The notes beneath the pieces are model-generated. The model made no database searches and was not told the origin of the DNA. It saw only the letters and a program-made list of their open reading frames with translations. This document shows positions 36,481 to 51,359 of a stretch of 64,000 nt of DNA, piece after piece. Numbering within the stretch: the stretch's first letter is position 1; each line of letters starts with the position of its first letter. The stretch is from Bacteroidota bacterium (GTDB taxonomy: Bacteria; Bacteroidota; JABWAT01), in assembly GCA_023151185.1 (NCBI GenBank), contig JAKLJL010000001.1, positions 310,001 through 374,000 of the forward strand. The letters run 5' to 3'. The position numbers and the translations under genes were made by a program.

Positions 36481-37002
36481 TCAGTTTTTCGGGTCCTTGT
36501 TTCCCATGGTTTTATCAAACTGTTCATCCAGCAGGCTGGAAAAATTATCATCAAAAATTTCGGAAATATCTACTTCCATTGATTCTGAGGAAATAATCTG
36601 GCGGAGCGATTCTTTTGCTTTTTTTGCGTAGATTCTGACAGTTCCCGGCGGAATGGTCGTCTTGAAAATAATCTCTAGGATATACCGGTCATCAATGCTC
36701 ATCAGGTAAATTGACCGTTCCTCGCCTTCATGGAACAGAACTTCAAAACTTGCCTTTTCGCCGATCAGTCTCGCCATTTCACTCGTTGCGGTAAAATTGG
36801 AAGCGGCCAGAACAGAAAAAACTTCAAGATCACGGTCCAGTAGTCCGCCGATTTTGGACAGAAGCTGTCCGGTCATGTCTCCGAGGATAATCGCCGTGGC
36901 TGCTGTTTTGGTGTACAGATCCTTCAGCACATTGGTGGCAAGTTCCATCTGGTTTTCACTGAGATAGACTTGTCTGAAATCCTCATTCCCTGTCTTTGCC
37001 AT
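36481..37002 (-). CDS. Roadblock/LC7-like protein with C-terminal extension
   Basis: A 173-residue soluble protein. Residues about 15-130 have the roadblock/LC7 alternation ('ATAIILGDMTGQLLSKIGG', 'FSVLAASNFTATSEMARLIGE', 'SIYLMSIDDRYILEIIFK'). The remaining 40 residues are acidic and helical ('SMEVDISEIFDDNFSSLLDEQFDK'). Roadblock proteins bind Ras-like GTPases, and MglB is the GTPase-activating partner of MglA. It runs divergently from the chemosensory operon that ends in mglA, which suggests it belongs to the same circuit. Whether it is the GAP or another adaptor cannot be decided here. Confidence 0.72.
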   Translation of the reverse strand: MAKTGNEDFRQVYLSENQMELATNVLKDLYTKTAATAIILGDMTGQLLSKIGGLLDRDLEVFSVLAASNFTATSEMARLIGEKASFEVLFHEGEERSIYLMSIDDRYILEIIFKTTIPPGTVRIYAKKAKESLRQIISSESMEVDISEIFDDNFSSLLDEQFDKTMGNKDPKN

Positions 37003-37070
37003 GGGGTTCCTTCAGAATTATTTGCAGGAATTTAAAAGTTCACCGGTTAAAAATCTACTGACCGCGCAGT

Positions 37071-37430
37071 TTAGGCCAAATTTTTTGCAATTTGTTCGCC
37101 GAATTTATTAAGCTGATATCTGACATTCCCAACGAGGGCCTTGTCTGAGGCAACAATGGCGAGCAGGGTTCCCGACTCGGTCACCACCTTGGATAGAAGG
37201 ATTCCGTTTTCGTACTCGATCATGGACTGGTGCAGGGTGCCAACCCCGAGGTCTTTGCCCATTTCTTCTGTATTCCGGATCCCGCCCGAAATAATTCCCC
37301 CTACGGCATCCGTATCCAGGTCGGTGTTGGTTAAGGATTCAATGACGAAGCCATCCTTGCCAATAACAACTGCGGCCAGAATACCTTCAACTGAAATCAG
37401 GTTTTTAAGAAGCGGTTTAAGGGAATCCAT
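37071..37430 (-). CDS. Roadblock/LC7 protein, MglB-like
   Basis: A 119-residue single-domain roadblock protein: 'LLKNLISVEGILAAVVIGKDGFVIESL', then 'DAVGGIISGGIRNTEEMGKDLGVGTLHQSMIEYENG', then 'LLAIVASDKALVGNVRYQLNKFGEQI'. This is the compact form seen in MglB and in predicted regulators of Ras-like GTPases. GGAG precedes the ATG at 37430; the frame upstream of it has no site. It is the promoter-proximal gene of the minus-strand unit facing the chemosensory operon. Confidence 0.82.
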   Translation of the reverse strand: MDSLKPLLKNLISVEGILAAVVIGKDGFVIESLTNTDLDTDAVGGIISGGIRNTEEMGKDLGVGTLHQSMIEYENGILLSKVVTESGTLLAIVASDKALVGNVRYQLNKFGEQIAKNLA

Positions 37431-37783
37431 GATGAAACTCCGGGTAATCTGTTGAACTTCAGTCAGCCGAGGCGGTCTGCGCATCCAGACTGCTGCCATA
37501 AAAGTCTAAAATAACCAGAGGCGTGTTCAAATTCAATTAAATCTGCCGGAAGGAGAAGACATTTCCGGTCCGGGAAATTAAAACGCGGTTGCAGGGGTTA
37601 AGAAATTCAGGGGAACGGGGATAAAACCATTGAAAATTCGCCTAAACCCTTATAAAAATAAATATTTTCTTGACAATATTGAACTAGTTTTAGTAACTTA
37701 AAATCTGAATTAGCCTGTTTCAACAACACCTTTTTCTGATCACTTTTTTTTATTTGACTCAATTTTCGAGATAGGAGCTTAAA
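37431..37783. other. Intergenic region between divergent roadblock and chemoreceptor genes
   Basis: About 350 bases without a coding frame or structured RNA that I can recognise. The half near 37640-37750 is AT-rich and contains the plus-strand promoter at 37670. The region is the natural control point for both the roadblock pair and the chemosensory operon. AGGAG (37769-37773) is the ribosome-binding site of the receptor gene. Confidence 0.6.
37670..37699 (+). promoter_or_regulatory. Sigma70-type promoter of the chemosensory operon
   Basis: A perfect TTGACA (37670-37675) is followed after 18 bases by TAACTT (37694-37699). The predicted start is near 37706, giving a leader of about 78 bases before the receptor gene. 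Confidence 0.45.
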
Positions 37784-40294
37784 ATGGCGGGTACTTTCTT
37801 TGAAAGCGGAATGTTTGCCCAGAACACCATCCGTGGTAAACTGCTGAACAACTTTGCAAAGGTAGTGGCAATTCCCGTAGGTATTATTGCTGCCGTTCTT
37901 CTGTTCACCATCAGCATGATTACCTCTAACCAGGCCGATGATTCTGCAACCCAGCAGCTGGCAAGTGCCAAGGCGGCAATGGAAGAGCAGGGCAAGATTC
38001 TGACCAAGACTATCTCGACATTGAATAATGATATTTATTCCCGGGTTTCGAATACAATCGGATCTTCTGAGTTCGTGGCCCTGATGTCAAAATTTAACCG
38101 GGCACCGAATATTCCGGAGAAGGATGCTGCCCGTGAAGATCTGAACAGTGTGGCTTTCGATAACATTGTTTCCTATGAACTGAGCTTTTTTACCATTCTG
38201 GATAACCGTGGACGTGTCATTACCCGTGCGACCGACCCGGCTTCTTTCGGCGATGATGTTTTTATCCGGGATTACTCAAAAATTGACGGCGTCAGCCCGG
38301 TCAACCAGTTTGTTGATGCAGCATCCAAAACCCTGACCAATAAAACAGGTCTGATGATGATCCCCGAGGATGTCCTCAAAAAAGAACTTCTGATTCAGGC
38401 CAATATTCCGATGAATGTTACCGGATTCCGCCCTTCCGAGCAGCATCTGAATGAACTTGCTACGTTTGAAGTCACCAACGAGGCCGGGGAAAAAGAAACG
38501 AAATATGTCGGGTTGGGAACCGTTGTCATTCTTCCGATCGTAGACCGCCTTCAAAATGTTCTGGGTGTTGTTGTTGGCGGGAAGCTTTTGGCCAGGAACA
38601 ATAACTTTCTTGTTCAGAATTTTCATACCATCGTAGAGCAAAACCGTGCATCGGCCAGCATTGTTGCAAACGGCATCCGGATCGTGTCCACTGAATCCAT
38701 GGCGTTTGGTGAAAACATCAATCAGTTTGCTGTCGGGGTTCCGCTAAAGGCTGATGTTCTTCAGCAGGCAGATACAGTTGGTTCAGTTGTACTGACCGAT
38801 GTGAATACCGGTGCAACCGAACGGGCCTACATGCAGGTTTCGGCTATGACCAACTCAATTACCTACAAACCGAACGAAAGTGTTCTGGCTTATGGTGTGG
38901 TAACCACCCCTTATGCGACCTATGGTACTGTAATTGATGAACTTCAGTCTTCGGCAACAACCCTGTTCTGGATTTCGGTTTTGATTCTGATTGTTTCCAT
39001 TGCACTCGGGTTCGTTGGCGCCTTTTACTTTGCAAGAACTCTTTCCGGGTCACTTACTACGACAGTTGATAACCTGCTGGTGACTATGGACCGGGTTGCC
39101 CACGGAGATTTTAATGCCAGAACCAACATTCATACCGGTGACGAATTTGAGGAACTTGGCTCCCGGTTCGATGAAATGATCCGGCGTCTTTCGGCACTGA
39201 TCGAAACGGAAGCCGAACGGGATTCGATGCAGAAACAGTTAACCAACCTTCTTGTGGTTGTGTCCAATTCAGCAGAGGGTGACTTCACCCAGCGGGCAAC
39301 TGTAACTGAAGGTGCTCTCGGTGCACTTGCAGACTCCTTTAACCTCATGGTGGATGACCTTGGACGCCTTATCCGTGAAGTCCAGTCTGTGACCCGTCAG
39401 GTATCTGAATCTGCCAAGGAAATTCTTGCCTCAACGGAAGAGATGGCACATGGTGCTGAAGAACAGTCCATTCAGGTGACGAACGCTTCGGCGGCCGTAG
39501 AAGAAATGGCTGCTTCCATCCGCCAGGTGGCAAATAATGCTGACTCTGCTGCAGAAGCTGCCTCAAAGGCTGCAGAAGTAGCCCAGTCGGGTGGTAACAT
39601 CGTACTTGAAACGATCGAGGGGATGAGAAGGATCCGGTCTACTGTGCAGGATTCTGCCCAAAAAATCAAGTCACTTGGTGAATCATCCAATGAAATCGGT
39701 AAAATCGTCCAGGTGATCGACGAACTTGCGAGCCAGACGAACCTTCTTGCTCTTAATGCTACCATTGAGGCTGCCCGTGCCGGTGATGCCGGACGTGGTT
39801 TTGCCGTGGTTGCTGACCAGGTGCGTGAACTTGCTGAACGTTCTGCAAAAGCAACAAACGATATTTCACAGCTGGTACAAACCATTCAGGCAGAAACACA
39901 GGAAGCGGTACACGCCATGGAAAAGGGTACTGCGGAAGTGGAAAAAGGTACCCGGCTTGCCGACGAAGCTGCACGGGCACTTGAGCAGATCCGGTCGGTG
40001 GTACAGCAGTCAACAGAACTTATTCAGGAAATCTCGCTTGCAGCCAAGCAGCAGGATATCGCTTCGGCAGGCGTCGTAATGGCGATGAATGAAGTGTCCC
40101 AGATCGCGAAACAATCTCTGATCGGATCCCGTCAGTCAGCTGCCTCTGCAACTGATCTGGTGGAAATTACGAAACGTCTGTCCCAGTCTGTGGCAAGGTT
40201 TAAACTGCCGGGCGGAAGTGAACTGCTGGATTCGGCCAGTGCACCCTTTTTCAGCGATTACGGCAGCGGAGAAATGAAAATTACCTCTAACTGA
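37784..40294 (+). CDS. Methyl-accepting chemotaxis protein
   Basis: An 836-residue transmembrane receptor. One helix at about 25-48 and another at 393-416 enclose a periplasmic sensor of about 340 residues, probably of the Cache type ('[21 protein letters not shown]', '[16 protein letters not shown]'). Two HAMP-like units follow ('[30 protein letters not shown]' and '[29 protein letters not shown]'). The signalling coiled coil has the conserved tip '[44 protein letters not shown]'. The C-terminus lacks a CheR-docking NWETF-type pentapeptide. It is the only receptor here and heads the operon, so it is the likely input to the giant CheA. Confidence 0.95.
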
Positions 40295-40299
40295 TACCG

Positions 40300-41118
40300 G
40301 TGACTCAGGAGAGTGTTCAGTTACTGAACCATTTTTATTTGATTTTAAATCAGAAAACCGGGCTGGTGTTAACCAGAAACCAGCACGGAAATCTGAAAAG
40401 CAGGCTGTTGAAACTGTTTCATGAGTTTTCAATAAACGAAGAGTCTCTTGAGTCAGTTCTCAGTGAAAACCCAGCCGCCTATGAAAAAATTCTGGAAGAA
40501 GTCCTGATCAATGAATCTTATTTTTTCAGGAATGAAGATCATTTCAGGGTTTTAAGAGAAATCATTTTTCCTGTATTTGCTGATAAAAGCAGTTTCAGTA
40601 AAGAAAAATCATTACGGGCACTTAGTGTCGGCTGCAGTACAGGCCAGGAGCCCTTATCCATTCTGATGGCGTTTTATGAATCACCTGCATACAAATCTGC
40701 CGGTGATTTCCATGTTGATGCAATCGATTTGTCGAAACAGGCCATAGTCACTGCCTTAAAGGCAGACTACAACCGAATGCAATGCAGGGGGTTGACCTCG
40801 GTATTGAAAGAGAAATATTTTAAACCATCCGGAACGGGTACCCTGAAGCCGGATGCGGGCTTACTTGAAAAAATAAGTTACGTTCACAGCAACATTCTGA
40901 ATCATGAACTTTTTGAAGGTGTTTACGACCTGATTTTTGCCAGAAATACCCTTATTTATTTTGATGATGTTAACTCTGAGCGGGTAAAACAAAAACTGAT
41001 CAGAGCACTTAAGCCGGGTGGATATTTATTCCTCGGAGAGTCCGAAATAGGATGGGGCCTGGGAGAACGTGTTCAGCCAATGAAATTCAATCAGTCAATT
41101 ATATACAGAAAACGGTAA
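40300..41118 (+). CDS. cheR: Chemotaxis protein methyltransferase CheR
   Basis: A 272-residue enzyme that methylates glutamates of the receptor. The helical N-domain is followed by 'EEVLINESYFFRNEDHFRVL', the S-adenosylmethionine site 'ALSVGCSTGQEPLSILMAF', and 'FDLIFARNTLIYFDD'-like sequence ('YDLIFARNTLIYFD'). The family motif usually has Cys or Asn before the last Tyr, as here. The start is a GTG six bases after the receptor stop. CheR and the CheB-like gene at 46850 make up the adaptation arm. Confidence 0.93.
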   Translation: MTQESVQLLNHFYLILNQKTGLVLTRNQHGNLKSRLLKLFHEFSINEESLESVLSENPAAYEKILEEVLINESYFFRNEDHFRVLREIIFPVFADKSSFSKEKSLRALSVGCSTGQEPLSILMAFYESPAYKSAGDFHVDAIDLSKQAIVTALKADYNRMQCRGLTSVLKEKYFKPSGTGTLKPDAGLLEKISYVHSNILNHELFEGVYDLIFARNTLIYFDDVNSERVKQKLIRALKPGGYLFLGESEIGWGLGERVQPMKFNQSIIYRKR

Positions 41119-41119
41119 G

Positions 41120-41524
41120 TTGGGACTCTCAAAGATCGAAATAATGGAACTGTTCCTGATTGAAGGATCCGAACATGCCCGTGATCTGGAACTCAGTCTG
41201 GCCAGGCTGGAAACTGAAGATGCGGCTGATGTTCTTTCTGATATGCAACTTCATGCCCATACAATTAAAGGTGCAGCTTCGATGGTTGGCTTTATGAACA
41301 CCAGTCATGTTGCCCGGTTTCTGGAACGGGTATTAATAGAACTTTCAGAAAAGAAACTTGCTCTGGATGATGAAACCAGAGAATTTTTAAATGAAGCGAC
41401 CAGAATCGTCCATAAATTTATCAGGAATATTACAGTCGGGGAGCTCAACGAAGCAATAATCCTGAAAGACATTGCCGGGAAGTACGACCGGATCATTTCT
41501 AAAATGGAAACTCAAAATGCGTAA
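41120..41524 (+). CDS. Stand-alone Hpt (histidine phosphotransfer) protein
   Basis: A 134-residue helical protein with one Hpt domain. The phosphate-accepting His47 is in 'LHAHTIKGAASMVGF', followed by 'HVARFLERVLIELSEKK'. Such a module could take phosphate from, or give it to, the receiver domain of the CheA hybrid or the receiver fusion at 48855. The start is uncertain: a TTG at 41120, directly after the cheR stop, keeps the full first helix; an ATG at 41144 is the alternative. It overlaps the cheA start by 8 bases. Confidence 0.82.
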   Translation: MGLSKIEIMELFLIEGSEHARDLELSLARLETEDAADVLSDMQLHAHTIKGAASMVGFMNTSHVARFLERVLIELSEKKLALDDETREFLNEATRIVHKFIRNITVGELNEAIILKDIAGKYDRIISKMETQNA

Positions 41525-44500
41525 CTGGAAAAAAATCAATCTGCTCGGAAACCTGAGTTCCAGGCAGGAAACTCCCGGCGATGCAGTTGCAAAATTTATT
41601 CAGGGATTGATTGCTCAGCTTGAATCCGGCCAGGTTCAGTCCGACCGGGTTGATTTGCTTACCCGGATTTTACTGCAATGTGAAAAATATGCCGGCGGAA
41701 CCTATCCTCCTGTTGCCAATTCTTCTTTTAATGACTTTTTCCAGTTTTTATCCTCTTTACCGGCTGAATTAAACCCTGAAAATCCGTTCGACGAGAAATA
41801 CGAACAACTTGCCTCCCAAACAGCAGAAACTGTCCAATATCTTGTTTCGGCAGTTGATGCCGTGTCTATCCCTTCCGATCTCTCCGAGCTTTATTCCTGG
41901 GCCGGACTTTCAGCACCCGGCGAACCTTCAGTGCAGAATACAAATCTTGCCGGTCCTGAACCTGAGGAAACCCAGATTACGGATGCTGTTTCGGCTGTTA
42001 GAGATCTGAAACCTGATTTTTCCCAATTTAACCATCCGTTAGCCCTTGGGTTTAGTCTTGCTGAATTGTTTGAAGGGGTTAAATCTGCACCCCAAAACGT
42101 ATTTACTGCTGAAACTCCGGCCCAGACCTTTGAAGAGGAGTTTGCTGCCCCTGTTCAGTCTGGCTTCAGCGAAACCCTGCTAAGCGAGCCTGTTTCAGAT
42201 GGAGCTGAAATTACAGCCGAGGCAGCAATTGAGGAAGAAATTGTTCTGGAAGACCACGGCATTTCTGATCTGACGGACGGGCTTCTGGAAGGACCGGTTT
42301 CTGAAGAATTGATTCAGGAAGAGCCCGGGTCTGTAATTTTGTCTGAAGAACCTGCTGGTATTGCAGAGGAGATTTTTGATTTTGAATCAGATTCCGCCGG
42401 TGCACCAGAGGAACAACAGCCGGTTAGTGAAGAGAGTTTGGAAAGTACTGAGGAGTCTGATGTGGTGACGGAACCACAAGAATCCGTGGAAGCTCCGGTC
42501 AATCACATGCAGTGGCTCATCTCCCAGATCATTTCAGTTTGGGATTCAGCGTTAACGGGTCATGCTGATTATGCTCTGATCCGGCAGGGAATGAGTGAAT
42601 TGTCTTCGTCCCCTTCCCCTGTTTCTGCATTCCGTGAAGTAAGTCCTTTACCTGAGTATCAGGAATTTATCGATTTTCTCGAACTTTCAGATCAAAATGA
42701 AGCCTTCGACCGTGACCTCGTAAAACCACAGATTGATCAGATCTCGAACAGGGTCTTTGAATTATTTACCGAAATTCTGAAACAGCAAACTCAGGATGAA
42801 CTTGGGGATTCCTTCTCAGAAGAGACTGAATCCATCCCCGTTTCTTCGGATGAAATCTCTGAAAACAGTTCCGGATCTGCCGAAGACCTGGTTTTAGAGG
42901 ATGTTGAGGCAACCATTGAAGACGGGGTCGCCGAAACCGGCACTTTAGATGAAGCCGAAGAAGAGGTTGTTTCTGACAGTAAAGATGAGGAAATCATCCT
43001 TTTGGAAGATGATCTTTCAGTTGATTCCATTACTGAAGATGAACCCGGTGAGTCTGTTTTGGCTGAGGATCTAAGTTCGGAAGACATTCTGGCTGATGCT
43101 GATGTCCCGGAAGAACAGAGTCAACCGGAAGAGCCGGCATTAATCGAACTGGAAACCGGAATTTCTGATGAATCCGCTTTTACGGCTTTAACCGAAGAGC
43201 CAGGTCATGATGCGCCTTCAGGTGAAGACATATCCGGAATTTCTGTCTTTCAGGAAGAGTCAGCCGGAGCTGATATCCTGCTTGATCAGTTTGTTACCGG
43301 ACCGGATACCCTGGCCGAACATGAAGATTTAAAGCCCGGATCAGAATCAGTCGACTATTTCGGCGTTATTCAGCAGATTTATCTGGATATCAAAAAGCTG
43401 AATTCGATTCAGGGCAACAATACGGGGATTAATCAGTTTGTTGATTTCAGTCTCTCGCTTAAAGATCCGGTTGAAGTGCTCAGGGAACATCTGAATATTC
43501 AGATTGCAAAAGAGTTCATCGAATATGTCGATCTCCTTCATGGCAGATATGATAACGGTGAAAAAAATGCCTATCAGGAAATGCTCTCCCACCGGATGGA
43601 TATTGCCGATCAATTATTTCAGGTGCTGTTGAACAACCCTGAAATTACTGGTGAAGAACAGCCTGAAGAAACTGCTGAAGAAATCCAAACCCCGGATCAC
43701 CTGACTCCGTCGACCCTTCATCTTGTCACAGACGAGGATCTTGCCGAAGAAACTGAATCCGTTGCAGATGAACTTACTGAAACAATTGATGAAGACCTGA
43801 TTCTTACCGGAGAACCCGGTGAACTGACAGACATTGAAACTCTTCCCTCCGAACTATCTGAGGAAGAAATATCCGGCATAATGGTTGAGGAGCAGGAAAC
43901 TGTAAGTCTGGATGAGCCTGAAATTCCGGATTCTGAACCCGGTTTGCCGGATCCGGATCAAACAGAAATGGTCATAGAAGAACCAGAATCCTACGAGTCT
44001 GAATCCAACGGGGCAGAAGCCTTGATTTCAGATGAGGAACCGGTGCTTGAGGATGAAAGTCTTATTTTTGAAGAGCCATCTGAGCTTGCAGATGACACTG
44101 CCGGACTATCTGTATTGATTGAGACAGAGCCGGCAGAGAATCCGGACCTTCTTTCACTTGCAGAGGAAGACGGAACTTCTCTGATCGAAGAATCCCTGAC
44201 CGGGGACGCCGGAGACCTTAGTGAACTGGATGCTTCTGTTCTTCAGGAGCCAGATCTGGTTGGCCTGGAAACACTCGAAGAACCGGAACTTGCCATCATT
44301 GAGGATACGCTTGAGTTACCGGATGATCAGGATACGCTGCTTGAACTCCCGGATGAACCGGCTGAACCTGCTGCCACTATCCCTTCAGAAAAACCAAAAC
44401 GGCCGCGGCAGGAACTGAATGAAATTCAGCAGGTCTTTTTGCTTGAAGCAGATGAAAATATCCAGAAAATAAGTACCGATCTTCTGGAACTCGAAAAAGA

Positions 44501-46853
44501 CCTCGGCAATATTTCAATTATCGACGGAATTCTGAGAAGTGCCCATACCCTGAAGGGGTCTGCGGCCATGATGAAGTTCTCGAACATGAGCAAACTGGGA
44601 CACAAAATGGAAGATGTGTTCCAGATCCTCCGGGATGAGAAAATTCCTGCAGACCGGGACCTGATTGATATCATGCTTAAAGGCACCGATATCCAGGTAA
44701 ATATGCTGACTTCTCTCAGGGAAGAGGGGCATGACGAAGTACCCGGGCTTGAAGAAGCTACCTTTAACCTGGTCCAGTACCTGAATAAGCTTCAGGCAAA
44801 ACTGGAAGGTAAAGAATTTACACCCGAAAAATTTGTCCAGACAGAACCAGTTGCCAAAGCAGAGGTTCCGGTTTCGTCCGGCCAGGAAATTCAGGCAGCA
44901 CCAGCAGCCCAGATGCAGCAGGATAACCGTCCGAAAGGGGTTGTTGCCGAGCAAACACTCCGGATCAACATTACCACCCTGAACAACCTGATCAATCTGG
45001 CTGCCGAACTTCTCATTTCCCGTAACCGGATGAATAACCAGCTGGGTTTCATGGAAGGCACACTTCTGAAGCTTCAGAAAGAAAAACTGCTTCTGAACTC
45101 CATCATGAAAAAGGTTTCTCAATTTGCAGGGAAAACGACGGATAATGCATCCGGATTTTTCTCAAGTGAGGAACAGGGCATTCTGCAGGATTTTGCAGAA
45201 TCCGAATTTGACCGGTTCAGCGACCTGGATATTATTCTCAGGGATATGCGGTCTAACCTGTCGAACTTTGAAGATTTAAGTTCTGAAATCCGGGGTTTCT
45301 CGGATGCTTTCCGCCAATCCATCCTTTCTGTATCCTCCATCGCAAACGAACTCAACGTTGAAATTATGTCGATGCGGATGGTTCCGGTAAAACACATGTT
45401 TATCCGGTTCCAGCGGTCCATCCGGGACATTGGCCGTGAGGAAAGCAAGGATGTGGATCTGAAGATTGAAGGTGAAGACACCCGTCTTGATAAAACGGTA
45501 ATGGAAGAGGTGATTGAACCGATTATGCACTGTGTCCGGAATGCTGTTTCGCACGGAATTGAGCTTCCGGATACCCGTAAGGGAAAGGGGAAATCCGAAA
45601 CGGGACTGATCACCCTCAGAGCCTACCAGGACGGGAACCAGGTTGTACTCGAAGTTGAAGATGATGGGAACGGAATTGATGCCCAGCGGCTGAAACAGGC
45701 TGCTATTTCCAAACGGATTGTCTCGGCAGAACGTGCAGAAGCCATGACCGATACCGAGGCCATGGAACTCATGTTTATTCCCGGATTTTCCACTGCCGAA
45801 AAAGTAACCTCCCTTTCCGGACGTGGGGTTGGGATGGACGTCGTGAAAAACGTCGTGACCAAGTTCAAAGGAAATATTTCGGTTAAATCAACGCTTGGAA
45901 AAGGGTCCTGCTTTACTATCCGCCTGCCGCTTACCCTTGCAATCAACCAATCCCTGCTGATTCAGGCCGGTGGAAAAACCTATGCCTTTCCGCTGAGTTC
46001 GGTTGAAGAAACTGTCGAACTTATCATGGAAAACATCCAGAAAATCGGCGAGCAGGAATTGATAACCGTCCGTGACCAGACCATTCCGCTTATTCACCTG
46101 AATCAGGTGATCGGGATGGAAGAGGACCCAGCCTCGATGAAACCAAAATACCCGGTTGTGATCCTGTCAGATGCTGACCAGAAAATTGCGGTACGGGTAG
46201 ACCGCCTGATCGGGAAGGAAGAAATTGTAGTAAAAACCCTCGGATCGCACCTTAAAAACGTAATGGGTGTTATGGGGGCAACTGTTTTGGGAGACGGTTC
46301 CGTTATTCTCATCCTGGATGTTTCCTATCTGTTCAGGTATTGGCAGGGCGGTAAAAACGCAGGAACCTCCGTCCGGTCTTCTTACGGGGCGCTTCCAGTG
46401 CTCGAGACAGAAGGATTCATGCCCGATGAAGAGGAAGCTGAAGAGACACCAAAACGGCCTGAACCGGCAAAAACAAGAGTTCGGGGAAAAATCAGAGTTC
46501 TTTGCGCCGATGATTCAGTATCCATCAGAAAGTATGTTGAATCTTTGCTGAAGCGGGAAGAGTATGAAGTAACTACTGCCCAGGACGGTGCTGAAGCTTA
46601 CGATATTGCAGAGAAAAATAAGTTTGATCTGATCATGACTGACCTTGAAATGCCCAAGATGCACGGGTATGAACTGATCAGTGCGCTGCGGTCCAAACCA
46701 CAGTTCAGCCAGATACCGATTGTTATTCTGACTGCCCGCTCAGGCGAAAAACACCGCCGCCGCGGACTTGAACTTGGCGCCAATGCCTTTTTGAACAAAC
46801 CGTTTGATGTGGATGAATTGCTGAATACAATTCATGGTCTTCTGGGCAGATGA
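41517..46853 (+). CDS. cheA: Giant CheA-CheY hybrid histidine kinase
   Basis: A 1778-residue kinase, more than twice the usual CheA length. Residues 1-965 hold three helical modules of about 90-100 residues (near 25-116, 331-424 and 612-710), separated by long Glu/Asp/Ser/Pro linkers. A P1 Hpt domain follows with phosphate acceptor His1010 ('AHTLKGSA'). Next come the dimerisation domain (from about 1142), the ATPase with N-box 'HCVRNAVSHGIE' and 'EVEDDGNGID' (about 1338-1390), a CheW-like P5 domain ('KTYAFPLSSVEET') and a C-terminal receiver with Asp1709 ('MTDLEMPKMHGYEL'). The order P1-kinase-CheW-receiver is that of Myxococcus FrzE. I take the ATG at 41517; an upstream TTG overlaps the Hpt gene and has no site. 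Confidence 0.93.
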   Translation: MRNWKKINLLGNLSSRQETPGDAVAKFIQGLIAQLESGQVQSDRVDLLTRILLQCEKYAGGTYPPVANSSFNDFFQFLSSLPAELNPENPFDEKYEQLASQTAETVQYLVSAVDAVSIPSDLSELYSWAGLSAPGEPSVQNTNLAGPEPEETQITDAVSAVRDLKPDFSQFNHPLALGFSLAELFEGVKSAPQNVFTAETPAQTFEEEFAAPVQSGFSETLLSEPVSDGAEITAEAAIEEEIVLEDHGISDLTDGLLEGPVSEELIQEEPGSVILSEEPAGIAEEIFDFESDSAGAPEEQQPVSEESLESTEESDVVTEPQESVEAPVNHMQWLISQIISVWDSALTGHADYALIRQGMSELSSSPSPVSAFREVSPLPEYQEFIDFLELSDQNEAFDRDLVKPQIDQISNRVFELFTEILKQQTQDELGDSFSEETESIPVSSDEISENSSGSAEDLVLEDVEATIEDGVAETGTLDEAEEEVVSDSKDEEIILLEDDLSVDSITEDEPGESVLAEDLSSEDILADADVPEEQSQPEEPALIELETGISDESAFTALTEEPGHDAPSGEDISGISVFQEESAGADILLDQFVTGPDTLAEHEDLKPGSESVDYFGVIQQIYLDIKKLNSIQGNNTGINQFVDFSLSLKDPVEVLREHLNIQIAKEFIEYVDLLHGRYDNGEKNAYQEMLSHRMDIADQLFQVLLNNPEITGEEQPEETAEEIQTPDHLTPSTLHLVTDEDLAEETESVADELTETIDEDLILTGEPGELTDIETLPSELSEEEISGIMVEEQETVSLDEPEIPDSEPGLPDPDQTEMVIEEPESYESESNGAEALISDEEPVLEDESLIFEEPSELADDTAGLSVLIETEPAENPDLLSLAEEDGTSLIEESLTGDAGDLSELDASVLQEPDLVGLETLEEPELAIIEDTLELPDDQDTLLELPDEPAEPAATIPSEKPKRPRQELNEIQQVFLLEADENIQKISTDLLELEKDLGNISIIDGILRSAHTLKGSAAMMKFSNMSKLGHKMEDVFQILRDEKIPADRDLIDIMLKGTDIQVNMLTSLREEGHDEVPGLEEATFNLVQYLNKLQAKLEGKEFTPEKFVQTEPVAKAEVPVSSGQEIQAAPAAQMQQDNRPKGVVAEQTLRINITTLNNLINLAAELLISRNRMNNQLGFMEGTLLKLQKEKLLLNSIMKKVSQFAGKTTDNASGFFSSEEQGILQDFAESEFDRFSDLDIILRDMRSNLSNFEDLSSEIRGFSDAFRQSILSVSSIANELNVEIMSMRMVPVKHMFIRFQRSIRDIGREESKDVDLKIEGEDTRLDKTVMEEVIEPIMHCVRNAVSHGIELPDTRKGKGKSETGLITLRAYQDGNQVVLEVEDDGNGIDAQRLKQAAISKRIVSAERAEAMTDTEAMELMFIPGFSTAEKVTSLSGRGVGMDVVKNVVTKFKGNISVKSTLGKGSCFTIRLPLTLAINQSLLIQAGGKTYAFPLSSVEETVELIMENIQKIGEQELITVRDQTIPLIHLNQVIGMEEDPASMKPKYPVVILSDADQKIAVRVDRLIGKEEIVVKTLGSHLKNVMGVMGATVLGDGSVILILDVSYLFRYWQGGKNAGTSVRSSYGALPVLETEGFMPDEEEAEETPKRPEPAKTRVRGKIRVLCADDSVSIRKYVESLLKREEYEVTTAQDGAEAYDIAEKNKFDLIMTDLEMPKMHGYELISALRSKPQFSQIPIVILTARSGEKHRRRGLELGANAFLNKPFDVDELLNTIHGLLGR

Positions 46854-47920
46854 TCAAAGTCGGAGTGATCGCTGCCTCCGGCCGGTTCGATTCCTGGATA
46901 AGACAAACACTGAATGATTCGCAGGATCTGATCATATCCGGGTTCTGGAATCAGCCGGATGGTGTTCCCGGAGACAGTTCGGTGGCAGACCTTCAGGTTC
47001 TGCTCGTGTTCTTTGAAAATTCTGATGCTGATAAAAACCTGTTTCAGGTTTTAAAGAATTGCTTTTTGCTCTACCGGAAACCGGTTATTCTGGTTACCGA
47101 GGAATTTCTCTGGACAGAGACCGAGGCATGGTCTCAAAGTTTTCCTGTCGTCAGTTCCCTTACGGTTTCTGAATTGTACCTGCCGGATGGCCGGGAACAC
47201 CTGAGGGAAGCTGTTCGGATGACCAGCTATGTCAGCCGTGAAATACTGGATTCTTTTCTGGATCAGCCGGCGGTTAGCCTGCAGGTACCCACAGAAGAAC
47301 CAGCTGTTCCAGAGCAGGAGCCAGAGACGCCAGGGAAATCTGCAGGTATTCCGGTTTTGCTGATCGGTGCCTCAACCGGCGGACCCAAAGTAATACTTGA
47401 TCTGGTCAAAAAGTTAGGAAAATGGTGTGAAACATATGCAATTGTAATTGCCCAGCACCTGTCTCACTCCTTTCTGGAGCAGTTTATTCAGCAGGTTCAG
47501 GCCGTCGTTCCGGTACAGGTTGAGCTGATCCAGACCGGGGTTCAACTGAGGCAGGGTGTTTTATTTCTTGCGCCCGTCCGCAGACAGTTTATTCTGGGTT
47601 CAGAAGGCTTTTTTGTTCCTGACCCGGGGCGCCATTTGTATCCGTTCATGCCCAATATTGATGTATTGTTTAAGAGCATCGCCCTTTTTTCAGGAAAAGA
47701 GGTCATCTGTCTGATTCTTTCGGGTCTTGGCCGTGACGGGACCGAAGGGGCAAGACTCGTCCGCAGAACCGGCGGACTGGTCATTACCCAGCAGCCCGGA
47801 ACAGCAGAGATCAGTTCAATGCCTGATTCGGTTACGGCAGCAGGACTTCAGCACTTTATTTTAACGCCTGATGAAATGGCGAAATTTTTAAAAAATTATG
47901 CGGTTAAAACCGAATTATGA
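46850..47920 (+). CDS. cheB: CheB-type methylesterase with degenerate receiver
   Basis: A 356-residue protein whose C-terminal half is a complete CheB methylesterase: Ser175 ('GASTGGPKV'), His203 ('AQHLSHSF') and Asp296 ('LGRDGTEGA') form the catalytic triad. The N-terminal 130 residues keep receiver-like strands, but the acidic pair is replaced ('VGVIAASGR') and the acceptor Asp position reads 'VLLVFF'. It therefore probably cannot be phosphorylated, and the esterase must be unregulated or controlled by binding. A Glu/Pro linker (about 143-163) joins the two halves. It starts inside the cheA stop codon. Confidence 0.9.
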   Translation: MIKVGVIAASGRFDSWIRQTLNDSQDLIISGFWNQPDGVPGDSSVADLQVLLVFFENSDADKNLFQVLKNCFLLYRKPVILVTEEFLWTETEAWSQSFPVVSSLTVSELYLPDGREHLREAVRMTSYVSREILDSFLDQPAVSLQVPTEEPAVPEQEPETPGKSAGIPVLLIGASTGGPKVILDLVKKLGKWCETYAIVIAQHLSHSFLEQFIQQVQAVVPVQVELIQTGVQLRQGVLFLAPVRRQFILGSEGFFVPDPGRHLYPFMPNIDVLFKSIALFSGKEVICLILSGLGRDGTEGARLVRRTGGLVITQQPGTAEISSMPDSVTAAGLQHFILTPDEMAKFLKNYAVKTEL

Positions 47921-48384
47921 GCTCAATAACACCTACTAACCCTCAGATCAGAGGGCAGTTCAGGCTGCTGGTTTTTGAAGTCGGGAGCAAACGGCTTGCC
48001 ACTCCGGTCGAAGCAGTCAGGACAATTGCCGATCTCGAAGAGGGCATGATTGCTGCTGCCCAGGCAGAAGCTGAAGGTAATGAAAGCTGGCAGGGACATA
48101 TCAATTTTATCGATCTGGCCAGTCTGTATTTTACTGAAGAATTGCATAAACCGTCAGATGAACGCAAGTTGATTGTTTTAAAATCTGACCCGGGTAATCT
48201 GAATGGTGTCATTGTTGACCGTGTTTTTGGTGTGGGAACTTATGAAACTCTGTTCCCGGTTCCTTCCGGAATTTTTAAGCTGCCGGAAGGGGTGATCACC
48301 CACATTATCACAACTGAAGATCCCTGGTTCGAGGTTGTCAATATTCAGAAAATTATAGAACTTAACGGGATTAACAGGGGGTAG
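47917..48384 (+). CDS. CheW-like coupling protein 1
   Basis: A 155-residue CheW-domain protein: 'FRLLVFEVGSKRLATPVEAVRTI' and 'RKLIVLKSDPGNLNGVIVDRVFGVGTYE'. CheW proteins link receptors to CheA in the array. A charged insert ('AAAQAEAEGNESWQGH') lengthens the usual loop, and the opening is less typical than in the second CheW gene. It is coupled to the CheB-like gene by an ATGA. Two different CheW genes also occur in the Frz system. Confidence 0.82.
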   Translation: MSSITPTNPQIRGQFRLLVFEVGSKRLATPVEAVRTIADLEEGMIAAAQAEAEGNESWQGHINFIDLASLYFTEELHKPSDERKLIVLKSDPGNLNGVIVDRVFGVGTYETLFPVPSGIFKLPEGVITHIITTEDPWFEVVNIQKIIELNGINRG

Positions 48385-48390
48385 ACCGGA

Positions 48391-48843
48391 ATGAATGAAT
48401 TACAGCTTCTGGTTTTCCGCATCGAAGATCACTACTTTACCGTTCCCATCAATAAAGTTGCCCGTGTGGTTGATACCCTGCAGTCAAAGTCAATGCCCCT
48501 GCTCAATACCGCTTTTGAAGGCCTTTTCATTTTTGATAACCGCCTGGTCCCGATTATCCGTCTTGCCGAACAGCTTGGGTTTTACGGGAACAACATTTAC
48601 AATACGAATCTGGATGAATCGGTTATTATCTTAAATTCTGAAGGATATTTTTTCGGATTCCGAGTGGATGCCATTGAAGGAATTGAAAAGGTTTTATCCT
48701 CCGAATTTCATCCGGTTACAGCAGACGTTGCAGACTCGGCGGGAATAAAAGCAGAAATTATCAGTTCCTGGGCTGAAATTACCGGGGCAACCGTTTATCT
48801 TGTGGATACAGACCGGCTTCTGTCGGCAACCCTGTTCAATTAA
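48391..48843 (+). CDS. cheW: CheW-like coupling protein 2
   Basis: A 150-residue CheW domain: 'LQLLVFRIEDHYFTVPINKVARVVD', 'LFIFDNRLVPIIRLAEQLGF', 'SVIILNSEGYFFGFRVDAIEGIEKV'. The order of two SH3-like half-barrels is complete. It lies 6 bases after the first CheW gene. One of the two may couple the receptor, the other may bind the receiver fusion or stay with a different receptor elsewhere in the genome; the sequence does not say which. Confidence 0.86.
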   Translation: MNELQLLVFRIEDHYFTVPINKVARVVDTLQSKSMPLLNTAFEGLFIFDNRLVPIIRLAEQLGFYGNNIYNTNLDESVIILNSEGYFFGFRVDAIEGIEKVLSSEFHPVTADVADSAGIKAEIISSWAEITGATVYLVDTDRLLSATLFN

Positions 48844-48854
48844 GGATTACTCTT

Positions 48855-50096
48855 GTGGATACAAAAAAGAAAGTTTTAATTGTTGATGACGAAGAAACCA
48901 TTGCCTGGGGAATCAGTAAAACCCTTGCGCAAAGTTCTGACCTTGGCGTTGAAACTGCCTATACGGTTAAAGCCAGCCAGGCGCTTGAAATGCTGGGCTC
49001 AGACAGATACGATCTGGTTATCACAGATATTAAAATGCCCGAAATGACCGGCATTGATCTGCTTAAAGAGGTTAAAGAAAAGTATCCCGATACCGGTGTC
49101 ATTATTATGACAGCTTATGGCTCGACAGAAGTCCAGATGGAAGCCAGTAAACGGGGAAGTATTTTTTACATTGAAAAACCCTTCGATATTAAAGTTCTGA
49201 AAAAGGCCATTTCTGATTTCTTTACCAAACGCCAGAACATTAATCCGGGTGGCACCCGGGAAGAAATGACCGGGAACGAAGACAGTTTCAAAGGAAACAT
49301 CGGATCGCTGCAGCTCATGGATGTGGTCCAGATGAACTGCCTTGGCCGTATTACCTGTACCCTTAAAGTAACTGACGGCCAAAAAGACGGAATAATTATT
49401 TTCAAAAAGGGAGATATCGTTCACGCCGAAACCAGCGGAATGGTCGGGAAGGAAGCCTTTTTTAATATTGCCGGCTGGAAAGGCGGCAGTTTTGATATGG
49501 TAAATGAAATTTCTGCCCAGGTGACCATTCTCGACCATTGGGAACAGCTTCTGATCGAGGCCCTTCAGGTACTGGATGATGGCAGTCAGGATAATGTAGC
49601 CGGTGATGATTTTGATTTTGATTTTGGTCAGCCGCCTTCCGGGACCACCATCAAAGCCAGTGTGGCTGAGCAGGCTCCTTCAGCTCCGGTAAGTCCGGTA
49701 GAAACCAATCTCGATATGACCCCGGTTGGAGATACGGCAAACGATGCCTCGACTCTGATGGAACGTATGCTGAAAAAAACCGGATCAGATGCTGTGTTTA
49801 TCATGACCCCTGATGGCTTTGTCATCGACCGGAAAATCACCAATGAAGCCCTGAAAATTGACCAGTCCGGCGAAAACATTTCAAGAACTTTATCGGCCGT
49901 GATTGCGTTAGGTGAAAATATGTTTTCAGGACCGCTGAACCGGGTTGTCATGTCCTTTCAGAATAAATACATCATTGTTAAGGCAATACCGAACAGTGAT
50001 CTGTTGTTTGTCATGTCGGCTCCGGCAGCTCTGCGCCTGGATGATATTCTACCGACAATTGAAAAAGAAGCCCAATACCTGACCAATCTAATCTAA
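48855..50096 (+). CDS. Receiver-PATAN(DUF4388)-roadblock fusion protein
   Basis: A 413-residue output protein in three parts. Residues 1-125 are a response-regulator receiver with phosphate acceptor Asp58 ('LVITDIKMPEMTGIDLL') and 'IEKPFD' at the conserved Lys. Residues about 145-245 are a PATAN/DUF4388 domain ('GNIGSLQLMDVVQMNCLGRITCTLKV', 'GIIIFKKGDIVHAETSGMVGKEAFF'). An acidic linker leads to a roadblock/LC7-like domain ('DAVFIMTPDGFVIDRKI', 'YIIVKAIPNSDLLFVMSAPA'). The design links a CheA phosphate signal to a Ras-like GTPase. The start is a GTG, 11 bases after the CheW stop. Confidence 0.86.
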   Translation: MDTKKKVLIVDDEETIAWGISKTLAQSSDLGVETAYTVKASQALEMLGSDRYDLVITDIKMPEMTGIDLLKEVKEKYPDTGVIIMTAYGSTEVQMEASKRGSIFYIEKPFDIKVLKKAISDFFTKRQNINPGGTREEMTGNEDSFKGNIGSLQLMDVVQMNCLGRITCTLKVTDGQKDGIIIFKKGDIVHAETSGMVGKEAFFNIAGWKGGSFDMVNEISAQVTILDHWEQLLIEALQVLDDGSQDNVAGDDFDFDFGQPPSGTTIKASVAEQAPSAPVSPVETNLDMTPVGDTANDASTLMERMLKKTGSDAVFIMTPDGFVIDRKITNEALKIDQSGENISRTLSAVIALGENMFSGPLNRVVMSFQNKYIIVKAIPNSDLLFVMSAPAALRLDDILPTIEKEAQYLTNLI

Positions 50097-50113: not shown

Positions 50114-50482
50114 ATGACTGCGCAACTGAGTGATATCATCCGCCCCCTATCCGACCTGCCTGGGGTTGTTGGCATTTTAATAATTGATCAGGATGGACTT
50201 GTGATGGAAACCACATTTCCGTCGGAAAGGGATCCTGATCTTCTTGGATCGGTCTTTGCAATTCTTGACCTGAATGTCACCGGGCAGTTATCAAAGCTGG
50301 GTGAAAATGCCCATCAGGTCTTTTTTTCAACCGCCGATAAACTGATTCTGATCCAAAAAATTGAAGATGTTACTTTGGTGCTGTATACTCGAAAAGAGAA
50401 TCTTTCTGAACTTCAGGACCGGTTATTTGATGCAGCCGGCAAGATTTCCGAGTTTTTACACATTGCCGGTCAGAATACTTGA
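50114..50482 (+). CDS. Roadblock/LC7 protein
   Basis: A 122-residue single-domain roadblock protein: 'PLSDLPGVVGILIIDQDGLVMETTFPSERDPDLLGSVFAILDLNV' and 'NAHQVFFSTADKLILIQKIEDVTLVLYTRKE'. It precedes mglA by 52 bases, the place where mglB is found in Myxococcus. It is thus the best positional candidate for the MglA GTPase-activating protein, although two other LC7 genes (36481 and 37071) and the LC7 domain of the gene before it are rivals. Confidence 0.82.
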   Translation: MTAQLSDIIRPLSDLPGVVGILIIDQDGLVMETTFPSERDPDLLGSVFAILDLNVTGQLSKLGENAHQVFFSTADKLILIQKIEDVTLVLYTRKENLSELQDRLFDAAGKISEFLHIAGQNT

Positions 50483-50534: not shown

Positions 50535-51359
50535 ATGGCTTCGATCAATTATGCGAACCGTGAAATTGTAATTAAAATTGTTTATTACGGTCCCGGGCTC
50601 AGCGGTAAAACAACCAACCTGCAGGTGATCCACCAGAATGTTCCCGATAATACCCGCGGAAACATGATTTCACTGGCAACCGAAGCAGACCGGACTCTCT
50701 TTTTTGACCTTCTTCCTCTGAATCTTGGAAGTGTTAAAGGGTTTAATACCAAATTCCAGCTTTACACGGTTCCGGGACAGGTTTATTACAATGCAACCCG
50801 TAAGCTGGTTCTTAAAGGCGTTGACGGTGTTGTTTTTGTTGCCGATTCAGGTGTCGGTAAGATGAACGAAAATATCGAATCCCTCCAGAATCTGAAAGAT
50901 AACCTTGCTGAGTATGGAATCGATCTGAACAATTTCCCGATCGTTCTGCAGTACAACAAACGGGATCTTGCCAATGTTTACAGTGTTGAAGAGCTGAATA
51001 AAAATCTGAACCCGAATAACGTTCCGGCAGTTGAAGCTTCCGTTATCAAAAATATCGGGGTATTTGAAGTTCTTAAAGCAATCAGCCGTGAAACACTTGC
51101 CCGGATTAATAAACAATCTGGTCCTGCACCACAGCCTGCAGCGGGTGCCCAACAGGCTGCTCCGGCGGCGGCTGCACCTGCACCTGCGCCTGCACCGGCT
51201 CCCGCACCAGCACCAGCTCCGGCGCCCGCACCGGCTCCACCACCTGCACCGGCTCCACCACCTGCCCCTGCACCGGCTCCCTCCGGACAGCAGCCTGGTG
51301 CGCCACAACAGGGCGGCACGTTTTTTAAAAACCTGATTAATAAAATGGATAATAAATAA
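50535..51359 (+). CDS. mglA: MglA-type Ras-like GTPase with Ala/Pro tail
   Basis: A 274-residue small GTPase. The first 195 residues are typical MglA: P-loop 'YYGPGLSGKTTNL', switch region 'TEADRTLFFDLLPLNLGSVKGF', 'LYTVPGQVYYNATRKLVLKGVDGVVFVADS' and base recognition 'QYNKRDL'. In the second motif 'TVPGQ' replaces the usual DxxG, as in all MglA proteins. Unusually, a chain of Ala-Pro repeats of about 50 residues follows (51160-51285), then a Gly/Gln stretch and a short amphipathic end, 'FFKNLINKMDNK'. MglA in Myxococcus marks the leading pole and drives gliding and pilus motility. It is the last gene of the operon. Confidence 0.92.
   Translation: MASINYANREIVIKIVYYGPGLSGKTTNLQVIHQNVPDNTRGNMISLATEADRTLFFDLLPLNLGSVKGFNTKFQLYTVPGQVYYNATRKLVLKGVDGVVFVADSGVGKMNENIESLQNLKDNLAEYGIDLNNFPIVLQYNKRDLANVYSVEELNKNLNPNNVPAVEASVIKNIGVFEVLKAISRETLARINKQSGPAPQPAAGAQQAAPAAAAPAPAPAPAPAPAPAPAPAPAPPPAPAPPPAPAPAPSGQQPGAPQQGGTFFKNLINKMDNK
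51160..51285 (+). repeat. Low-complexity Ala-Pro coding repeat in mglA
   Basis: About 40 codons alternating Ala (gca, gct, gcg, gcc) and Pro (cct, ccg, cca), interrupted only by a few extra Pro. Codons are mixed, which argues that the peptide rather than the DNA repeat is kept. Confidence 0.8.

Follow-up and report, generated by a model that had tools for sequence, protein, structure and literature searches.

Within the 64,000-nucleotide stretch of Bacteroidota DNA that we analysed (the window), a chemosensory operon on the forward strand runs in the order MCP, CheR, Hpt, CheA, CheB, CheW, CheW, RR-DUF4388-LC7 (RR, response regulator), LC7 and MglA. Its MCP gene (37784-40294, +) was syntenic in 12 of 12 relatives compared, and is followed by CheR (40300-41118, +; PF01739, E-value 1.1e-37), a stand-alone Hpt protein (41120-41524, +; PF01627, E-value 1.2e-11) that is kept within the window's family, a giant hybrid CheA (41517-46853, +), the CheB methylesterase (46850-47920, +; PF01339, E-value 2.1e-39) and two CheW proteins (47917-48384 and 48391-48843, +; PF01584). 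Downstream of these lie the RR-DUF4388-LC7 protein (48855-50096, +), assigned by Pfam with an LC7 part that scored below the curated cut-off (E-value 0.011), a syntenic LC7/roadblock protein (50114-50482, +; PF03259, E-value 1e-6) and an MglA-like GTPase (50535-51359, +), whose residues 1-196 matched solved MglA by phmmer (E-value 6e-74) and which ends in a Pro/Ala-rich tail of ~75 residues. With MCP, CheA, CheW, response regulator, LC7 and MglA together, this is predicted to be the gene set of an MglA-linked (Frz-like) system. Two divergent LC7 genes are located upstream of the MCP gene (36481-37499, -); this location is shared by the window's family and genomes G086 and G007, the first of the two genes being 70-94% identical across this set. 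Only in the window's family were CheR, CheB and the stand-alone Hpt seen next to cheA; the region upstream of cheA in distant relatives gave no separate ortholog of the stand-alone Hpt, and those relatives have two or three true Hpt copies inside CheA itself.

The cheA open reading frame (P0001, 1778 residues) starts with an ATG at 41517, overlapping the end of the stand-alone Hpt gene by 8 bases, and ends at 46853. From residue 970 Pfam describes an ordinary kinase: a true Hpt (P1) domain (residues 970-1059; 44424-44693, +; PF01627, E-value 1e-13), dimerisation (H-kinase_dim), ATPase (HATPase_c) and CheW-like domains (44949-46337, +; PF02895, PF02518 and PF01584) and a C-terminal receiver (Response_reg; 46497-46832, +; PF00072, E-value 6e-30). 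Judged by these Pfam matches and by a motif scan that places HxxKG in the Hpt, the protein is a predicted hybrid CheA histidine kinase. A CheA P2 (response-regulator binding) family appeared neither among the Pfam matches to CheA nor among the listed matches of the module members described below, and a Pfam search of residues 1-960 gave no match. The same genome has a second CheA-type kinase (a 1072-aa frame at G000:C24:41691-44808) with several Hpt copies and without the modules.

In this N-terminal part of the giant CheA an earlier note, made by reading the sequence, had claimed three like helical segments at residues ~25-116, 331-424 and 612-710. These were borne out as modules of ~95 residues at 23-118 (M1; 41583-41870, +), 329-424 (M2; 42501-42788, +) and 612-708 (M3; 43350-43640, +). 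The acidic linkers of 150-250 residues said to separate them were present as well, at residues 119-328 (41871-42500, +; 210 residues, 24% acidic), 425-611 (42789-43349, +; 187 residues, 33% acidic) and 709-965 (43641-44411, +; about 250 residues, 34% acidic and 1% aromatic); overall, acidic residues made up 24-34% of the linkers and aromatic residues 1-6%. Identity to relatives was 35-79% for the modules (59-79% for M3) versus 21-34% for the linkers (25-32% for linker 1 and 21-22% for linker 2). The note was also right that no module has the Hpt motif HxxKG, the sole example in the protein being at residue 1010, inside the true Hpt.

The likeness of the three modules was assessed with a "far-only" profile, an iterative HMM built on distant proteins alone from a seed of five G086 segments chosen by eye; it settled on 38 modules and contains no sequence from the window's family. 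Among 796 ORFs this HMM matched M2 at an E-value of 4.9e-6. When window-family profiles were compared with it by HHalign, M1 (88%, 88 columns), M2 (96.7%, 91 columns) and M3 (85%, 91 columns) all aligned in register, so that a single profile links the three segments as the note had proposed to check; for each module none of 60 column shuffles did as well. Compared directly, M2 and M3 were in register across 86 columns, with 0 of 100 shuffles as good, whereas helical control regions of the same proteins (Hpt and dimerisation) scored about 0.1-5%. M1 was also recovered in a search of its own genome (E-value 3.5e-12) with alignment A1, which itself contains M1. In the strictest test, in which the HMM was built without any member of one position class, M2 was recovered (E-value 0.0016) and M1 and M3 were not, needing profile-profile comparison; their link to the family therefore rests on profile-profile evidence together with conserved order. 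These sequence comparisons confirm that M1, M2 and M3 form one module family, alike beyond chance, with a consensus that starts dh..Fh..hh..h...l........h...L..Ll..pD.h..L..s.h..h.dF..FL.

An AlphaFold2 (AF2) model of M2, built on eight related rows taken from the window and from two loci, was confident and compact (pLDDT 92.6, pTM 0.81), with five helices at module positions 2-17, 24-35, 40-45, 51-65 and 71-95. A model of residues 1-730 from three sequences had low confidence (pLDDT 38.5), and we used only its helix pattern: predicted helical islands at 20-129, 328-435 and 614-711, to which only a short helix (2-12) and a tiny one (181-185) are added, with very low pLDDT in linker 1 past residue 135. 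Structure prediction thus did not bring out the unrelated folds or disorder that would have told against the earlier note, and M2 is predicted to be folded; the confident model is for M2 only, M1 and M3 having no confident model of their own.

A Foldseek search of the PDB with the M2 model, a method that is weak on small helical folds, returned 46 matches, all with E-values above 2.6 and TM scores below 0.46, and a viral structure library gave no match. Profile searches of PDB sequences yielded only weak or partial matches, such as to a designed protein (E-value 3.7e-5) and to the Elongin-A LW domain (6zuz, E-value 0.042). Across Pfam, NCBIfam, PHROGs and PADLOC there were only scattered matches, of one to three members each, to unrelated families; the plasmid records searched held no module, nor did four genomes of the phylum of locus L041 and 294 of that of L042, in runs made without a positive control. 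Our literature search found no paper describing these modules. By all libraries searched, then, the module family appears to be new, while the chemosensory system itself is of a known, Frz-like kind. The 6zuz match was a lead to homology with the TFIIS N-terminal (LW) docking domain that the fold search did not support: that domain is small and helical like the modules, but the M2 fold search did not return it, and we treat the resemblance as analogy only. The ligands of LW domains are aromatic motifs within disordered regions.

Hpt domains (PF01627) are also helical, lie on the N-terminal side of CheA and are often repeated. The modules could be read as decayed Hpt domains that have lost the phosphorylated histidine; they too are helical and stand ahead of an Hpt, and the distant relatives carry their several true Hpt copies in the very same protein. 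However, HHalign between the modules and the Hpt domains of the same proteins gave at most about 1% and HxxKG is missing, which in effect rules this reading out; in addition, no Hpt structure was among the fold matches, and the highest histidine frequency in any module column is 16%. We find this origin hardly credible.

In a phylum sample of 394 genomes the module occurred in 16, which are exactly those with a giant CheA and exactly those with an RR-DUF4388-LC7 protein. Two genomes of the same genus and one of the same family have the architecture of the window. The rest of the sample contributed about a dozen giant CheAs, of which the intact ones have 1986-2466 residues and kinase parts 44-50% identical to the window's. 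The number of modules does vary among related CheAs, another point the note had raised: there are three in all four genomes of the window's class, four in family f26 and five in family f5, both belonging to a Chlorobia-like group. In G389 the fifth copy comes from a second CheA (the assembly is 13% contaminated). The fragmented assembly G279 has two copies, the first on a fragment of CheA and the second in a separate protein of ~190 residues with an unrelated N-terminal part (L122:3245-3823, -), so membership of the family is not confined to CheA; by eye, this separate gene sits between apparent glycosyltransferase and CTP synthase genes. In the single-contig genome G007 a change of frame within module 2 (L046:5491-5555) divides the giant cheA; the two frames overlap near a T run, and the split may reflect a sequencing error, decay or frameshifting.

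The order MCP-CheA-RR-LC7-MglA is syntenic in most relatives. In G136 (L069) the RR-DUF4388-LC7 gene is ~130 kb from cheA, and both are kept. The module was found in 0 of 86 genomes of the large family f8. If G007 is Chloroherpeton thalassium, f26 would be relatives of Thermochlorobacter and f8 probably the Chlorobiaceae. A 2022 study (PMC9318685) describes the Chlorobiaceae as non-motile and Chloroherpeton as a glider, with gliding presumed for Thermochlorobacter. The type IV pilus ATPase PilT (TIGR01420, at E-values of 1e-60 or less) was absent from all 16 module genomes; on this strict search PilT-driven twitching is an unlikely output of the system, and gliding would be a likelier one.

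In a tree of 61 modules, positions 1 and 2 split from positions 3 and later (support 95/93). Position labels required five changes on this tree, against a possible minimum of four and an average of 34.6 in shuffles, with the caveat that few columns and long branches make the finer forks weak. Modules thus group by position across distant lineages and not by protein, from which the copies look specialised rather than interchangeable; between positions, identity is about 20% at most. As far as these sequences indicate, three or more distinct modules were probably present in the common ancestor, with later gains in the Chlorobia-like group or losses in the window's class.

This pattern bears directly on what the modules might bind. 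The earlier note had suggested that they bind whole globular LC7, CheW or MglA domains, gathering several copies on one kinase. The operon includes genes for all of these partners, and the RR-LC7 protein occurs in exactly the same genomes as the module; but because the genes that co-occur belong to a single operon, their co-inheritance singles out no partner. The grouping by position speaks against three equal sites collecting copies of one partner, and most distant relatives keep the modules although no CheW was detected near their cheA. We therefore regard binding of globular partners as distinctly unlikely. The modules might instead self-associate, so that CheA molecules, or CheA and the MCP, pack into arrays or clusters of a particular kind in which the linkers set the spacing. 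Several copies per kinase, their variable number, the long flexible linkers, and amphipathic helices whose hydrophobic register is conserved would all suit such packing, whereas division into position classes with so little identity between positions is unlike typical homotypic repeats; a conserved motif in a linker also speaks against it. Self-association seems to us unlikely, if worth keeping in view.

The linker motif in question is LGFSLAELF at residues 177-185 of the window's CheA (42045-42071, +), an instance of the family pattern [FYL]G[FILV]x[LF]xx[LV][FA]. One copy of this motif (FGFxLxxLF) stands between modules 1 and 2 in 16 of 16 CheAs, compared with 0-0.2% of shuffled linkers, and in the window it coincides with the small helix predicted at 181-185 in the low-confidence model. 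A similar motif, F-[ST]-x-x-[DE]-[LF]-[FLVI], follows the last module in most distant relatives. Two further motifs lie in partner tails. In eight of nine distant relatives the MCP tail has [DEN][DE]LF[VIL] (DLF[VIL]), a motif that the MCPs of the window's family are without. The MglA tail ends in FFKNLx[NK]KM in 10 of 10 intact genes, the window's included (FFKNLINKM, within FFKNLINKMDNK at 51321-51356, +), and the stretch before it is Pro/Ala-rich or otherwise variable. MglA chains of known structure have ~200 residues; the best-matching one (203 residues) aligns only to residue 196, leaving the tail unaligned. All of these motifs were first noticed by eye and counted later, so that the shuffles describe the patterns and test no prior hypothesis.

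The reading that we favour, with a probability of roughly 45%, is that the CheA N terminus is a docking scaffold whose specialised modules bind short linear motifs within an MglA-linked chemosensory complex. Folded beads, drifting linkers and short motifs in partner tails are the usual anatomy of docking scaffolds, and we prefer docking because conserved folded beads are strung here on drifting acidic linkers, with conserved motifs in linkers and partner tails. One could also suppose that the N terminus acts only as a spacer and binds nothing specifically, as its long, acidic and poorly conserved linkers might suggest; however, the linkers drift, yet the modules and the linker motif persist between proteins that share only 44-50% identity in their kinase parts, and we consider a mere spacer quite improbable. 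Under the docking scaffold, three related, specialised helical domains would precede an ordinary Hpt-kinase-CheW-receiver CheA, kept apart by long linkers that are predicted to be disordered, and would dock onto short linear motifs of the same signalling complex. Candidate ligands are CheA's own FGFxLxxLF, the MglA tail FFKNLxNKM and, in the Chlorobia-like relatives, the MCP-tail DLF[VIL]; since the modules have diverged by position, one ligand common to all of them is unlikely. Docking of this kind would hold receptor, kinase, response regulator-LC7 and MglA GTPase together, and phosphorylation could then be handed on locally to a polarity or gliding switch, with surface motility as the presumed output.

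The closest known counterpart is the FrzE/Frz system of Myxococcus xanthus with MglA/MglB, in which a polarity switch based on MglA likewise receives its input from a chemosensory kinase pathway, and which also has MglB-like LC7 proteins. The Frz pathway, too, connects to MglA via a response regulator (PMC3441718, PMC4316618), and a direct FrzZ-RomR interaction had not been demonstrated as of a 2014 survey (PMC4316618). Unlike in Frz, kinase and MglA are joined here in gene order within one operon, the regulator forms one protein with DUF4388 and an LC7-like part, and MglA has a conserved tail motif. The CheA described here carries the apparently new modules. By analogy, the output of the kinase in the present system may also be MglA and cell polarity.

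The way in which chemosensory kinases connect with polarity control by MglA is still an open question, and here receptor, kinase, RR-LC7 and MglA share one operon, which adds to them a conserved, unannotated domain family and conserved short motifs. What we computed is one module family without a recognised family or solved fold, in three to five copies at conserved positions, an invariant linker motif, and operon co-inheritance with RR-DUF4388-LC7 and MglA. More speculatively, and on balance doubtfully, this would be a new-fold domain family acting as a motif-docking network, in which CheA modules read disordered motifs of CheA itself, the receptor and MglA and so tie chemosensing to the polarity switch. 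A 95-residue module and three short motifs provide the parts for a direct test of such scaffold coupling.
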